From Pelagibacterium luteolum (GTDB lineage Bacteria > Pseudomonadota > Alphaproteobacteria > Rhizobiales > Devosiaceae), in the NCBI RefSeq assembly GCF_900100665.1, contig NZ_FNCS01000001.1:67001-131000 (forward strand): DNA of 64,000 bases, written 5' to 3'. The translations under genes and the position numbers were made by a program. Positions 31,715-59,494 of this stretch are shown piece by piece. The first letter of the stretch is position 1, and each line of letters begins with the position of its first letter. Below the pieces are notes generated by a model, which was not told the DNA's origin, did not search any database, and worked only from the letters and a program-made list of their open reading frames with translations.

Positions 31715-32959
31715 CTATTCCGCTGCAGGTTTGGCCCGTCCTGCGCCGAACCGGTTTTCGATGTAATCGGCGACCATCAGCTTGAACTGGTCGGCGACGT
31801 CGGCGCCCTTGAGGGTGGCGACCTTCTGACCCTCGACGAACACCGGGGCCGAGGGGGTTTCGCCGGTGCCGGGAAGCGAGATGCCGATATCGGCGTGCTT
31901 GGATTCCCCCGGTCCGTTGACGATGCAGCCCATGACGGCGACCGACATGGCTTCGACCCCGGGATATTTCTCGCGCCATTCGGGCATCGAGGTCGAAAGG
32001 TGGTCCTGGATGTCCTTGGCGAGGGTCTGGAACGTCGTCGAGGTGGTGCGCCCGCAGCCGGGGCATGCGGCAACGACGGGGACGAACTGGCGGAAGCCCA
32101 TGGTCTGGAGCAGTTCCTGAGCTACTTTGACCTCGAGGGTGCGATCGCCGCCCGGTTCGGGGGTCAATGAGATGCGGATCGTGTCGCCGATCCCCTGCTG
32201 CAGAAGGATGCCGAGGGCGGCGGAGGAGGCGACGATGCCCTTTGATCCCATGCCGGCTTCGGTGAGGCCGAGATGGAGCGCGTAGTCGCAGCGGACGGCC
32301 AATTCCTGATAGACGGCGATCAATTGCTGCACGTCGGAGACCTTGGTGGACAAGATGATCCTGTCGCGGCCCATGCCGAGCTCTTCGGCGCGTTCGGCCG
32401 ATAGGATCGCCGAGCGGATAATGGCCTCGCGCTGGACATGCGCGGCGCTCCACGGCGTTTCGCGGGCGGCGTTTTCATCCATGAGGACGGTGAGCAGTTC
32501 CTGATCGAGCGAACCCCAATTGACCCCGATGCGCACCGGTTTGTCGTAGCGGTTGGCGATCTCGATCATCTGGGAGAATTGTTTGTCGCGCTTGTCGCGG
32601 AACCCGACATTGCCCGGATTGATGCGGTATTTGGCCAGCGCTTCGGCACAGGCGGGATGATCGGCCAGGAGCTTGTGGCCGATATAGTGAAAATCGCCGA
32701 CCAGGGGCACGTTGACGCCACGAACCATCAGGCGGTCGCGGATGATGGGCACGGCAGCAGCGGCTTCATCGCGATCGACGGTGATGCGCACGATTTCCGA
32801 CCCGGCCCGCGCCAGCGCTGCAACCTGAGCTACAGTGGCATCGATATCGGCGGTGTCGGTATTGGTCATCGACTGGACGACGATGGGCGCGCCACCGCCG
32901 ACCGTGACCCCGCCGACATCGACCCCGACCGTGCGATTGCGCTGTGCTGGACCTGCCAT
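31715..32959 (-). CDS. ispG: 4-hydroxy-3-methylbut-2-enyl diphosphate synthase (flavodoxin)
   Basis: 414 residues from ATG 32957-32959; the upstream in-frame extension to 33175 runs through repeat DNA and is rejected. IspG motifs are clear: VQSMTNTDT near the start, and 4Fe-4S ligands in CPGCGR and [10 protein letters not shown]. It makes HMBPP in the MEP isoprenoid pathway, linking functionally to ispA at 13.4 kb. First gene of an operon with a membrane protein and a GNAT enzyme. Confidence 0.96.
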
Positions 32960-33086
32960 GACGAACCTTCCCAATGCTGGCGCAAGACATAAGGGTTTGA
33001 TGAGATCAGCGCAATATTGTGGGGGTGTGACAATGGGTGTGGGTGGGAGGAGTGGGGTTGGTGAAGTGGATGCTCTCTCTGGCGTG

Positions 33087-33121
33087 GAGCATACTGGGTC
33101 CCGGCTCAAGGCAGGGATGAC
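33087..33121. repeat. Right arm of the AGTATGCTC repeat family (solo)
   Basis: GAGCATACTGGGTCCCGGCT followed by a CAAGGCAGGGATGAC hairpin end. A single right arm lies upstream of ispG, with only a short ATGCTC partner at 33070-33075. One of the dispersed family-1 copies. Confidence 0.75.
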
Positions 33122-33208
33122 ACGGGTGGGATGTGGCGAAGGGGGGCCGAAACGTGCGGCGTACGGCAACAGCATTGGGTAGACTCATGCGCTGCCGCAA
33201 ACCACACT

Positions 33209-33609
33209 GTCGTCCCGGGCGAAGACCCGGGATCCAGTATGCTCGGAGGGGGCATGGGGGCGCAGCGATATTACTATGTTTATATTCTCGCCAGCGGGAT
33301 TGGCGGAACGCTGTATGTTGGGGTGACGAACGATCTTTTTCGCCGAATCGGTGAGCATCGGGACAAGGCCGTTGCGGGGTTTACGCGAGCGTATGACGTC
33401 GAACGGCTCGTCTATTACGAGACCCATGAAAGCATCGACGGCGCAATCGAGCGCGAAAAGCGGCTCAAGCGATGGCGCAGGGGATGGAAGGTTCAGTTGA
33501 TTGAAGAGCAGAACCCCAATTGGGTCGATCTCTTTGCGGGATTGAGGCCGTAAGACGAGGCCATCGCCCATTCGGAGCATACTGGGTCCCGGCTCACGGC
33601 CGGGATGAC
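33209..33609. mobile_element. Composite inverted-repeat element carrying a GIY-YIG nuclease gene
   Basis: Left arm 33209-33246 (GTCGTCCCGGGCGAAGACCC, then GGGATCCAGTATGCTCGG) and right arm 33573-33609 (CGGAGCATACTGGGTCCCGG, then CTCACGGCCGGGATGAC) form a long imperfect inverted repeat. In other copies in this window the arms are separated by only about 25-40 bp. Here the loop is 326 bp and holds one complete gene (33254-33553) and almost nothing else. Mobility is inferred. Confidence 0.6.
33254..33553 (+). CDS. GIY-YIG nuclease superfamily protein
   Basis: 99 residues from ATG 33254. YVYILAS (residues 8-14) and YVGVTNDLFRR (21-31) form the GIY and YIG strands with the conserved Arg; the downstream ETHESIDGAIEREKRLK supplies the metal-binding Glu and the usual REKxLKxW segment. 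This short form belongs to the YhbQ/UPF0213-like group. The gene lies wholly between the inverted arms of a repeat element, 7 bp after the left arm and 19 bp before the right arm. Whether it acts on those repeats is untested. Confidence 0.9.
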   Translation: MGAQRYYYVYILASGIGGTLYVGVTNDLFRRIGEHRDKAVAGFTRAYDVERLVYYETHESIDGAIEREKRLKRWRRGWKVQLIEEQNPNWVDLFAGLRP

Positions 33610-33680
33610 GGCTGGGGATGGGGCGAGCGATGTGGCCCTCATGTATCGGTGGTAAGGTACACCATTGCAGCCAATACCCG

Positions 33681-33710
33681 ATGTCGTCCCGGGCGAAGAC
33701 CCGGGGTGAC
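33681..33710. repeat. Truncated left arm, repeat family 1
   Basis: ATGTCGTCCCGGGCGAAGAC followed by CCGGGGTGAC: the hairpin of a left arm without the CCAGTATGCTC tail. It lies 70 bp beyond the GIY-YIG element, in a gene-free stretch before the YkvA gene. Confidence 0.7.
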
Positions 33711-33810
33711 GGAGGGGGTGGGGTGAGCGGTGTGGCAATCTTTTCGCTCACGATGTCGAGGGTCGTGGCGAACCCCTTGAACCGGCGGGCGGCGTACCCA
33801 TTTATTTTCC

Positions 33811-34119
33811 ATGATCAAGAGCTTCGCTTCACTTCTGCTGCCTCGCTTCCTGCGGTTTCGCAAGGAAGTGGTGCTGTTGTGGAAGGCGTTCTGGACGCCG
33901 GCCACCCCGCTTTACCTCAAGGTCGCGACCTTCGCGGCCGTGGCATATCTTGTGTGGCCGGTCGATATCCTGCCCGATTTCATCCCGTTTCTGGGCTGGA
34001 TCGACGATATCGTGATCGTCCCGCTTATTGTTGGCTGGATCGTTTCGCAACTGCCGGGTGCCAAGGCACCGGCAGAGCGCGACGGGCCGGTAATCGACGG
34101 GACGGCGCGGCGCGTATAA
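33811..34119 (+). CDS. YkvA family (DUF1232) membrane protein
   Basis: 102 residues. The DUF1232 core is ATFAAVAYLVWPVDILPDFI followed by GWIDDIVIV, a hydrophobic hairpin with the conserved P-x-D-x-x-P-D signature. Function unknown in all bacteria. ATG at 33811. Confidence 0.92.
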   Translation: MIKSFASLLLPRFLRFRKEVVLLWKAFWTPATPLYLKVATFAAVAYLVWPVDILPDFIPFLGWIDDIVIVPLIVGWIVSQLPGAKAPAERDGPVIDGTARRV

Positions 34120-34198
34120 TCAACGTTGACCGCGGGAACCATTTTGCCCTCACGAATGTTTTACAGCCCATAATGGTCACTGTGAGGGAAATTTCAAA

Positions 34199-34357
34199 AT
34201 GGGCCTTTCGACAATCCTGATAATTATCCTGATTTTGCTTCTGATCGGCGCGCTGCCGACATGGGGCTATTCCCGGTCCTGGGGCTATGGCCCGACCGGC
34301 ATTCTTGGCGTCATCCTCGTCGTCATCCTGATTTTGATGCTTATGGGTATGATCTGA
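34199..34357 (+). CDS. DUF3309 family small membrane protein
   Basis: 52 residues, almost all hydrophobic: MGLSTILIIILILLLIGALP, then TWGYSRSWGYGPTGILG and a second hydrophobic helix. This is the DUF3309 pattern, common in alpha- and betaproteobacteria and of unknown function. The GTGAGGGAA ribosome-binding site lies upstream of the ATG at 34199. Downstream are a GC hairpin (34370-34400) and a strong terminator. Confidence 0.93.
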   Translation: MGLSTILIIILILLLIGALPTWGYSRSWGYGPTGILGVILVVILILMLMGMI

Positions 34358-39804: not shown

Positions 39805-39901
39805 TGTCGCCCCGGCCTTGAGCCTGGGTCCAGTATGCGCGACGCGTATGATTGACCACAAGCGCGGAGCATACTGGGTCCCGGATCAAGTCCGGGATGA
39901 C
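39805..39901. repeat. Repeat family 1, complete copy upstream of pyc
   Basis: Left arm GTCGCCCCGGCCTTGAGCCT...CCAGTATGCGC (39805-39840), a 25-nt loop, and right arm CGGAGCATACTGGGTCCCGG...ATCAAGTCCGGGATGAC (39866-39901). The inner hairpin stems differ from other copies but remain self-complementary. It lies between pyc and the TIGR01244 gene and may overlap the pyc promoter region. Confidence 0.8.
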
Positions 39902-39970
39902 AGGGTTTGGATTGGCAACGCTGCAATCGAAGTTTCGAGCGCAGCTTTCATGAACGAAAGCCAGCGCTGC

Positions 39971-40524: not shown

Positions 40525-40555
40525 GCTGGGTCCTCGGGTCAAGCCCGAGGATGAC
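40525..40555. repeat. Repeat family 1, stem variant (type B), single arm
   Basis: GCTGGGTCCTCGGGTCAAGC followed by CCGAGGATGAC. Same outer sequence as family 1 but with a CCTCGGG/CCCGAGG inner stem. The gene-free stretch 40394-40891 consists almost entirely of repeat family copies. Confidence 0.7.
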
Positions 40556-40590
40556 GGTGGGGGGGTGTGAGGCGCGGGGGATGAACGCTG

Positions 40591-40655: not shown

Positions 40656-40695
40656 GGGCGGTGATGAGGCATTTGTCGCTGCTCCAACCACCGCC

Positions 40696-40804
40696 GTCGT
40701 CCCGGGCGGAGACCCGGGATCCAGTATGCTCAGGGTATGAAATTGGCCACGGTGGTCGACAATCGATGCGGAGCATACTGGGTCCCGGCTCAGGGCCGGA
40801 TGAC
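40696..40804. repeat. Repeat family 1, complete copy
   Basis: Left arm GTCGTCCCGGGCGGAGACCC...CCAGTATGCTCA, loop of about 39 nt, right arm GAGCATACTGGGTCCCGGCT...CAGGGCCGGATGAC. Located between the TIGR01244 gene and the OpuAC-type gene. Confidence 0.8.
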
Positions 40805-40847
40805 GGGTTTGGGTTTGGTGAGCGGTTGGGAATGACCTCTGACTCAG

Positions 40848-47950: not shown

Positions 47951-48033
47951 GACGCGGGCTCCGTTGCGTTGAGGCTGTTGTTCTTGCATCGGATCGAGGG
48001 TGGTGCCAAGGGGCACGATCCTATCCCTCCCCC

Positions 48034-48170
48034 GTCATCCTCGGGCTTGACCCGAGGACCCACGCACGATCGCAGCATGATCGGTCCTTATGATGTATCT
48101 CGCTGATAAAACGCTATTTCTGCTGTTGAGGTGATGCTGGCTGGGTCCTCCGGTCAAGCCCGAGGATGAC
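48034..48170. repeat. Repeat family 1, type B complete copy
   Basis: Left arm GTCATCCTCGGGCTTGACCC then GAGGACCCACGCA; right arm GCTGGCTGGGTCCTCCGGTC then AAGCCCGAGGATGAC. The inner stems use CCTCGGG/CCCGAGG rather than CCCGGG pairs. The gap from mgsA to cheY (47951-48407) contains this and the next copy and no gene. Confidence 0.7.
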
Positions 48171-48255
48171 GGAGGTGGGGATGGCGACGGGGGTGGGCAA
48201 GGGCGCGTGCTGCCCTAACTCGTGATGTTTGCCACGGCCATCAATTCAGCTTCAG

Positions 48256-53830: not shown

Positions 53831-53908
53831 GACCGACGTTCAAATCGCCGACGCGCGGTCCGAAATTGGCGCTTGAGTTTGCCTACATCCTCGCCACGAA
53901 CCACCGAT

Positions 53909-54017
53909 GTCATCCCGGGCGAAGACCCGGGAGCCAGTATGCTCGGTGGTTATGAGGTAGCCAGAAAATCCCATCGAATGTTGAGCATACTGGCTCCCGG
54001 CTCAAGGCCGGGATGAC
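53909..54017. repeat. Repeat family 1, complete and well-paired copy
   Basis: Left arm GTCATCCCGGGCGAAGACCC then GGGAGCCAGTATGCTCGG, a 36-nt loop, right arm TGAGCATACTGGCTCCCGGC then TCAAGGCCGGGATGAC. The AGCC/GGCT change relative to other copies is matched on both arms. In the 379-bp gap after the cheT-like gene, where nothing else but a family 2 palindrome is seen. Confidence 0.85.
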
Positions 54018-54056
54018 AGTTTGGGGGCGTGGGTAACGCGAGACGCACCACTTGCG

Positions 54057-59138: not shown

Positions 59139-59494
59139 ACACCAACCGCTGTCATCCGGGGCGACGACCCGGGACCCAGTATGCTCCGGCGGCGTGAGTT
59201 GGCGGCGGGGATGCCATCTGGCGCCGAGGATACTGGGTCCCGGCGCAAGGCCGGGATGACGGGTGGGGTGAGGCGAGACAGAGGACGCTTTGAAGGCACT
59301 GGTTGCAGCCTCGCCACACCAACCGCTGTCATCCCGGGCGAAGACCCGGGACCCAGTATGCTCCGTGGTGGTGGGTTGGCGGCGGGGAATACCATCTGGC
59401 GCGGAGGATACTGGATCCCGGCGCAAGGCCGGGATGACGGGTGGGGTGAGGCGAGACAGAGGACGCTTTGAAGGCACTGGTTGCTGCAGCCTCG
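59139..59494. repeat. Tandem duplication of a family 1 repeat unit
   Basis: Two copies of a 177-178 bp unit, about 59139-59316 and 59317-59494. Each has a complete family 1 element (59151-59260 and 59328-59438) followed by a shared flank GGGTGGGGTGAGGCGAGACA...TTTGAAGGCACTGGTTGC. The copies differ at scattered positions, mainly in the loop. No gene lies in the gap 59096-59538. Confidence 0.85.

Follow-up and report, generated by a model that had tools for sequence, protein, structure and literature searches.

The window analyzed here, a 64,000-nt stretch of the Pelagibacterium luteolum genome (contig NZ_FNCS01000001.1), carries, at 33208-33610 between ispG and ykvA, a GIY-YIG nuclease gene of 99 codons enclosed by two REP arms in inverted orientation. 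The left arm (33208-33246, plus strand) begins with a TGTC tag and the hairpin TCCCGGG-(6 nt)-CCCGGGA, which together span 33208-33233, and ends with the tail core CCAGTATGCTCGG, whose last base at 33246 lies 7 nt 5' of the nuclease ATG at 33254. The gene itself occupies 33254-33553 on the plus strand and encodes 99 aa. On its far side, the right arm (33573-33610, minus strand) opens 19 nt past the nuclease stop with CGGAGCATACTGG, contains the core CCAGTATGCTCCG, and closes with a hairpin and GACG at about 33610, with the CGTC tag outermost. This spacing agrees with the preliminary description of the locus, which had also called the second arm a matching one; an inverted arm is indeed present, but its core CCAGTATGCTCCG differs in the last bases, and the two arms are 77% complementary over 39 nt.

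The arms share a layout in which the TGTC or CGTC tag lies outside, followed by a 7- to 8-bp stem with a 5- to 6-nt loop and a tail with the core CCAGTATGCTC toward the gene. CGTC REPs are defined, in the available part of the paper describing them (PMC3733652), by a CGTC/TGTC tag, an 8- to 9-bp stem, a 4- to 5-nt loop (others occur), a CCA-like tail, and an arrangement as inverted dimers. The window arms, whose tail also has the CCA motif, belong to this superfamily, with stem and loop lengths slightly off the published ones. Rfam gave no match in window positions 32900-34200, and neither did searches of PHROGs and PADLOC. Two further elements lie close to the unit: an extra single arm on its 5' side (33086-33121, minus strand), in which the core is shared but the hairpin is degenerate, and a solo palindrome at 33682-33711, which is tagged at each end, lacks the core, and resembles the gene-less form found on Sphingobium plasmids (described below). 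Judged by eye, the insert between ispG and ykvA spans approximately 33036-33767; the two neighbors are 853 bp apart in the window and 105 to 339 bp apart in 10 congeners. Open frames at 33175 and 33131 run through the REPs, giving ispG and the nuclease gene longer, probably spurious, starts that automatic annotation may choose.

The nuclease matched the Pfam GIY-YIG model PF01541 (E = 5.7e-16). Six of its residues, Y10, Y21, R31, H35, E68, and N87, which we take to be the GIY-YIG catalytic set (Tyr, Tyr, Arg, His, Glu, and Asn), are invariant in 18 aligned members; in a second alignment (n = 29), E68 is conserved at ≥90% and the other five positions are invariant. On the strength of the Pfam match and these positions, the protein is assigned to the GIY-YIG superfamily. 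An AF2 model (pLDDT 90.7) had as its closest solved folds in Foldseek the UPF0213 protein BH0048 (1zg2; E = 2.4e-4) and Slx1 (E = 0.015 and above), and the likeness to UPF0213 structures is remote. No NCBIfam model matched at E = 0.001, in a library that may hold no UPF0213 model.

Repeat copies in the window and its genome

The repeats are far more frequent than chance would provide. The window has 12 copies of the 9-mer core AGTATGCTC versus 0.19 expected, and none of 100 shuffles reached 12. Across the genome, CCAGTATGCTCGG has 23 copies (reversed control, 0), and CCAGTATGCTC has 72, versus 0 to 2 in each of 12 congeners. The initial observation that the same arms are elsewhere joined by short loops without a gene was borne out by an arm search, which located five convergent gene-less pairs with arm gaps of 49 to 64 nt elsewhere in the window, at 39805-39902, 40695-40805, 53908-54018, 59150-59261, and 59327-59439. 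Two of the five were compared with shuffles by single-strand DNA folding, and both were far more stable, the pairs at 40695-40805 (z = -4.75) and 53908-54018 (z = -8.39) each folding as one long hairpin. Folded one at a time, the arms flanking the nuclease gene did no better than shuffles (z = -0.80 and -1.65). The gene-less pairs at 59150-59439 form a tandem duplication, 178 bp apart and 95% alike over 103 nt.

The window also contains a second REP type, CCTCGGGCTTGACCCGAGG with near variants, at 40531-40556, 48033-48058, and 48146-48171. The same type flanks, as convergent arms, a second GIY-YIG copy elsewhere in this genome (locus L039, contig C26, 150714-150974), which is broken by an internal TGA.

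Association and co-divergence of arms and nuclease genes

The protein was found in 97 of the 136 genomes of the window's family at 1 to 5 copies each, for a range of 0 to 5 copies per genome. A scan of public genomes, from which the best 80 of at least 584 confirmed loci were kept, extended the distribution. Isolates among these best 80 were mostly Proteobacteria (Maritalea, Azospirillum, Bradyrhizobium, Caulobacter, Pseudomonas, Lysobacter, Kangiella, Colwellia, and others). Records among the same best 80 of at least 584 loci that are titled Planctomycetota, Chloroflexi, Bacteroidetes, Nitrospirota, Ignavibacteria, or candidate phyla were nearly all metagenome bins, so these nonproteobacterial labels may reflect misbinning. 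Removing duplicates from 177 loci left a set of 157 genes, 74 from genomes of the family and 83 from the public scan; one near-identical pair from two genomes was kept, and two of the 83 scan loci are from Maritalea, which belongs to the window's family. The aligned part is free of stops in 150 of the 157 genes and contains an internal stop in the remaining 7.

Arms were detected within 110 nt on both sides of 83/157 genes (44/74 family and 39/83 scan), compared with 25/8120 random windows from the same loci. The convergent gene-in-loop form accounted for 47 of these two-armed genes, versus 7/8120 random windows, while 20 had outward-facing arms and 16 had arms in the same direction. A further 47 genes had an arm on one side alone, and 27 had none by this detector; in total, 130/157 genes had an arm, versus 587/8120 random windows. 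An inverted arm no more than 60 nt past the stop was present at 60/157 genes, versus 33/2434 stops of long open frames. The co-occurrence of arms and nuclease in other Devosiaceae and in further genomes, on which the preliminary description had staked its reading, is therefore found, and the gene-in-loop form that it described holds strictly for 47/157 genes; the form is not universal, as many genes lie between REPs in other arrangements and 27/157 have no arm by the detector.

The association was also recovered with a detector-free measure, the inverted similarity between a gene's two flanks with the tag ignored, relative to null windows. Scores above the 99th percentile of the null were obtained for 46/73 family, 51/82 scan, and 16/25 class-wide top GIY-YIG loci. 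Above the 99.9th percentile, the counts were 0/73, 39/82, and 16/25, respectively, the zero for the family probably arising because one locus holds 5000 masked N and null windows score up to 110. Of the class-wide loci, 26/30 were matched by family queries, and the strict detector found an arm at 5 of those 26. By eye, other palindromes act as arms at several class-wide loci, and at four of them (L240, L249, L250, and L269) the GIY-YIG genes are flanked by a different, CCTGAGCCTGTCGAAGG-like palindrome. These flanks hint that gene-repeat pairing may not be limited to CGTC tags. The 16-mer CTGAGCCTGTCGAAGG, picked for the non-CGTC repeat, had 0 to 13 copies in 12 genomes, a weak signal.

At 61 loci (1.15 Mb) selected for containing a GIY-YIG gene, all 22 convergent adjacent arm pairs with gaps of 300 to 500 bp enclose such a gene. 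Unselected stretches totaling 400 kb contained 42 arms (18 in the reversed control), and no adjacent pair among them had a gap of 300 to 500 bp. A looser initial arm detector had been dropped after its reversed control gave 32 hits versus 44. As a separate observation, a related GIY-YIG gene on Planktothrix agardhii plasmid p1 (L231) has a type IIL restriction enzyme on one side and DISARM drmA on the other; the strict detector found no arm there, and other short repeats, CTGTCATTCTGAG, are located downstream of the gene.

Arm sequence also follows gene sequence. In a tree of 73 genes, in which few columns and many weak forks limit resolution, arm stems group with gene clades, even between paralogues of the same genome. 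For the 130/157 genes that have an arm, and without the 89 pairs whose flanks are homologous, arm distance was correlated with protein distance: Mantel rho was 0.48 within the family, where the null reached at most 0.09, and 0.23 overall, where it reached at most 0.098. For 17 of 18 testable genes, the arms were nearer those of nonsyntenic relatives elsewhere than those of distant paralogues in the same genome. Taken from these sequence comparisons, arms and genes co-diverge at nonsyntenic sites.

A genus of 75 genomes offered a test by copy number, in which membership in gene clade a was set at ≥62% identity to the L089 gene. Type a arms had a median of 21.5 copies in the 22 genomes with the cognate clade versus 2 in the 53 without it (P = 2e-5, relatedness ignored), and type b arms were not tied to clade a (P = 0.11, relatedness ignored). 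Type a and b copies together had a median of 37 in the 54 genomes with any gene versus 3 in the 21 without. The relationship has exceptions in both directions: type a copies are present in 32 of the 53 genomes without clade a, 10 of which have 20 or more; two genomes without a detected gene are REP rich (G048, with 88 type a and b copies, and G056, with 47); and G027, G038, and the incomplete G069 contain clade a and at most 2 type a copies.

Occupied and empty sites

Among the pairs of clade a copies listed, homology mostly ends 48 to 75 nt left and -7 to 56 nt right of the gene, at or near the arms, with the low and negative right-hand ends belonging to copies without a close right arm. Most of the listed pairs have no longer match beyond the arms, including the two copies within each of G073, G025, and G032; exceptions among them are L086-L095, which share 925 nt on the left, and one L093-L085 pair, which shares 350 nt on the right. 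Judged by these alignments, arm, gene, and arm occur together as a unit of ~0.4 kb at unrelated sites.

Relatives provide sites that lack the unit. The ispG-ykvA loci of 10 congeners had no GIY-YIG gene and no arm by the strict detector (the ykvA match is absent in 2 of the genus's 13 genomes). The empty sites that the preliminary description had proposed looking for thus exist, and the nuclease gene is not always located at this position. At a second site, the unit is present in G084 and absent from G044 (89% identical alongside), and G077 has a different REP. A Sphingobium plasmid site is more varied: 4 of 9 aligned records are gene bearing, including that of TomTYG73, in which the nuclease gene is frameshifted; TomTYG64 and TomTYG74 have a lone palindrome, TomTYG72 and TomTYG65 have other sequence, and Sphingobium herbicidovorans is bare. 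In the TomTYG73 plasmid (L238), the frameshift is a single-base deletion, no nuclease gene is annotated, and the arms are kept. In the alignment, the TomTYG64 palindrome looks, by eye, like a fusion at an 8-nt repeat between the left arm's left half and the right arm, a form that would fit a deletion product or, alternatively, a target before insertion.

Target-site duplications, as expected of an insertion sequence or MITE, could not be called, because the flanking sequences have diverged too far between the sites compared. Other loci were less informative for such comparisons: the L097 flank had no match in 74 other genomes, the L083 flank was matched in just 1 of 5 other genomes, and at the L078 site, which was matched in 74 genomes, most of the 30 loci listed diverge beyond the far side, leaving no clean comparison. 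Present at nonhomologous sites and missing from the corresponding sites of relatives, the unit qualifies as a mobile genetic element.

Proposed mobilization and known repeat systems

We consider it fairly probable that the unit is a small mobile element in which inverted CGTC-tagged REP arms are paired with a cognate single-domain GIY-YIG processing nuclease, in the manner of REP/RAYT systems but with an unrelated enzyme. The nuclease would recognize the REP hairpin or cruciform that arises when a REP pair is single stranded or extruded and would nick near the tag or tail. Host repair or replication might then place a copy of the REP pair, gene included or not, at another site, and the gene-less short-loop pairs would mostly be derivatives moved in trans. 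Slx1-like GIY-YIG relatives act on branched DNA. GIY-YIG enzymes hydrolyze DNA and keep no covalent intermediate, so rejoining would have to be the work of host repair or replication, unlike in RAYT, an HUH transposase.

The analogy to REP/RAYT drawn in the preliminary description stands as an association, visible in the 157 genes, in their co-divergence with the arms, and in the occurrence of the unit at unrelated sites; that the nuclease catalyzes the movement, and that the gene-bearing form is the parent of the gene-less one rather than the outcome of a gene entering a gene-less pair, is what we infer. Two observations point toward parenthood. In the congeners G126 and G127, genes 69% and 71% identical to the window gene are located elsewhere, and each genome has 2 copies of the 11-mer core, one being the arm just upstream of the related gene, with no amplification. 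In two examples of short-loop type a pairs, the inner tails resemble those on either side of the gene in the gene-bearing form, where the right tail and the stop codon overlap; this resemblance may reflect derivation from a gene-bearing unit.

GIY-YIG enzymes are classic homing nucleases, and the main rival to the mobile-element reading, which we regard as unlikely, builds on that role: the REPs would spread by other means, the enzyme would cut gene-less pairs, and repair would copy the gene into the loop, making the gene-less form the target. The shared position of the gene-bearing form and the TomTYG64 and TomTYG74 palindromes on the Sphingobium plasmid would be expected under such homing, as would REP-rich genomes without the gene. 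It accounts poorly for an arm type that tracks the gene type at unrelated sites and for units present where relatives have no REP, both in S. herbicidovorans and between ispG and ykvA in the 10 congeners. Amplification of the core solely in the gene-holding P. luteolum genome (G000) among the genus's 13 genomes also speaks against homing, yet the two congeners with a related gene are unamplified. We consider it improbable that the enzyme serves the host without mobilizing the REPs, either by resolving or editing REP cruciforms or by exploiting the REPs at its flanks to control expression and mRNA stability. The nearest solved folds, UPF0213 proteins and the branched-DNA nuclease Slx1, would suit such a role, and the REP transposase TnpA-REP is itself termed domesticated in the available part of PMC8266576. 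A settled host function is hard to reconcile with 0 to 5 copies per genome, copies of one clade at unrelated sites, orthologous sites without the gene, and internal stops in 7/157 genes, a combination that amounts to the behavior of a mobile gene. Coincidence is scarcely credible: REPs are intergenic and often lie just past stop codons (available part of PMC3733652), and where dense they would flank any small intergenic gene, but flanking at 83/157 and 60/157 genes far exceeds the rates at random windows and long-ORF stops, and no non-GIY gene occupied a 300- to 500-bp convergent gap at the 61 selected loci or in the 400 kb of unselected stretches. Together with the reversed-sequence controls, these comparisons led us to reject chance flanking.

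Among known systems, the mobile element proposed here is closest in organization to REP/RAYT (REPtrons and REPINs, with an IS200/IS605-like HUH TnpA-REP). Both have a small nuclease gene between inverted REPs, a repeat type matched to the gene type, dispersed gene-less inverted pairs, and a patchy distribution, and the REPtron feature of a gene flanked by its own REP type, with the type covarying with the gene, is found here. The enzyme, however, belongs to the GIY-YIG nucleases and has no relation to HUH, the repeats carry CGTC/TGTC rather than GTAG tags, and the element is ~0.4 kb, with the gene-bearing unit itself at nonhomologous sites. Because both the HUH enzyme and the GTAG tag are missing, the unit would work like REP/RAYT without being a member. 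Homing endonucleases and Penelope-like elements are selfish elements that likewise use a GIY-YIG nuclease; the unit differs in having no intron, intein, or reverse transcriptase and in having REP palindromes as its ends. UPF0213 (YhbQ-like) and Slx1 proteins share the GIY-YIG domain and provide the nearest solved structures, whereas the unit's group is REP flanked and mobile (flanks having been examined for the unit's group alone) and matches no NCBIfam model. The closest repeats are the CGTC-tagged REPs of Di Nocera et al. (2013; PMC3733652), which share the tag, stem, loop, CCA-like tail, and inverted dimers and are mostly alphaproteobacterial; the available part of that paper reports no associated transposase gene and describes these REPs as apparently without a dedicated transposase, whereas a nuclease gene is paired with them here. 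A search of the open-access literature, with preprints and most subscription journals outside its scope, found no paper joining GIY-YIG with REPs.

A broader proposal, to which we give an even chance of being right, is that, across bacteria, palindromic repeats of the CGTC type, and some of other types, have their missing mobilizers in this group of nucleases. The elements would be ~0.4 kb long, and their hydrolytic nucleases of ~95 aa would have themselves and gene-less pairs copied by cutting hairpins or cruciforms, followed by host repair or replication, as an independent, convergent counterpart of REP/RAYT. The cognate nuclease is a directly testable mobilizer candidate for CGTC REPs, and the pairing offers a possible role for genes annotated just as "GIY-YIG nuclease family protein." If the proposal is true, partnerships between REPs and nucleases would have arisen at least twice, with unrelated enzymes.
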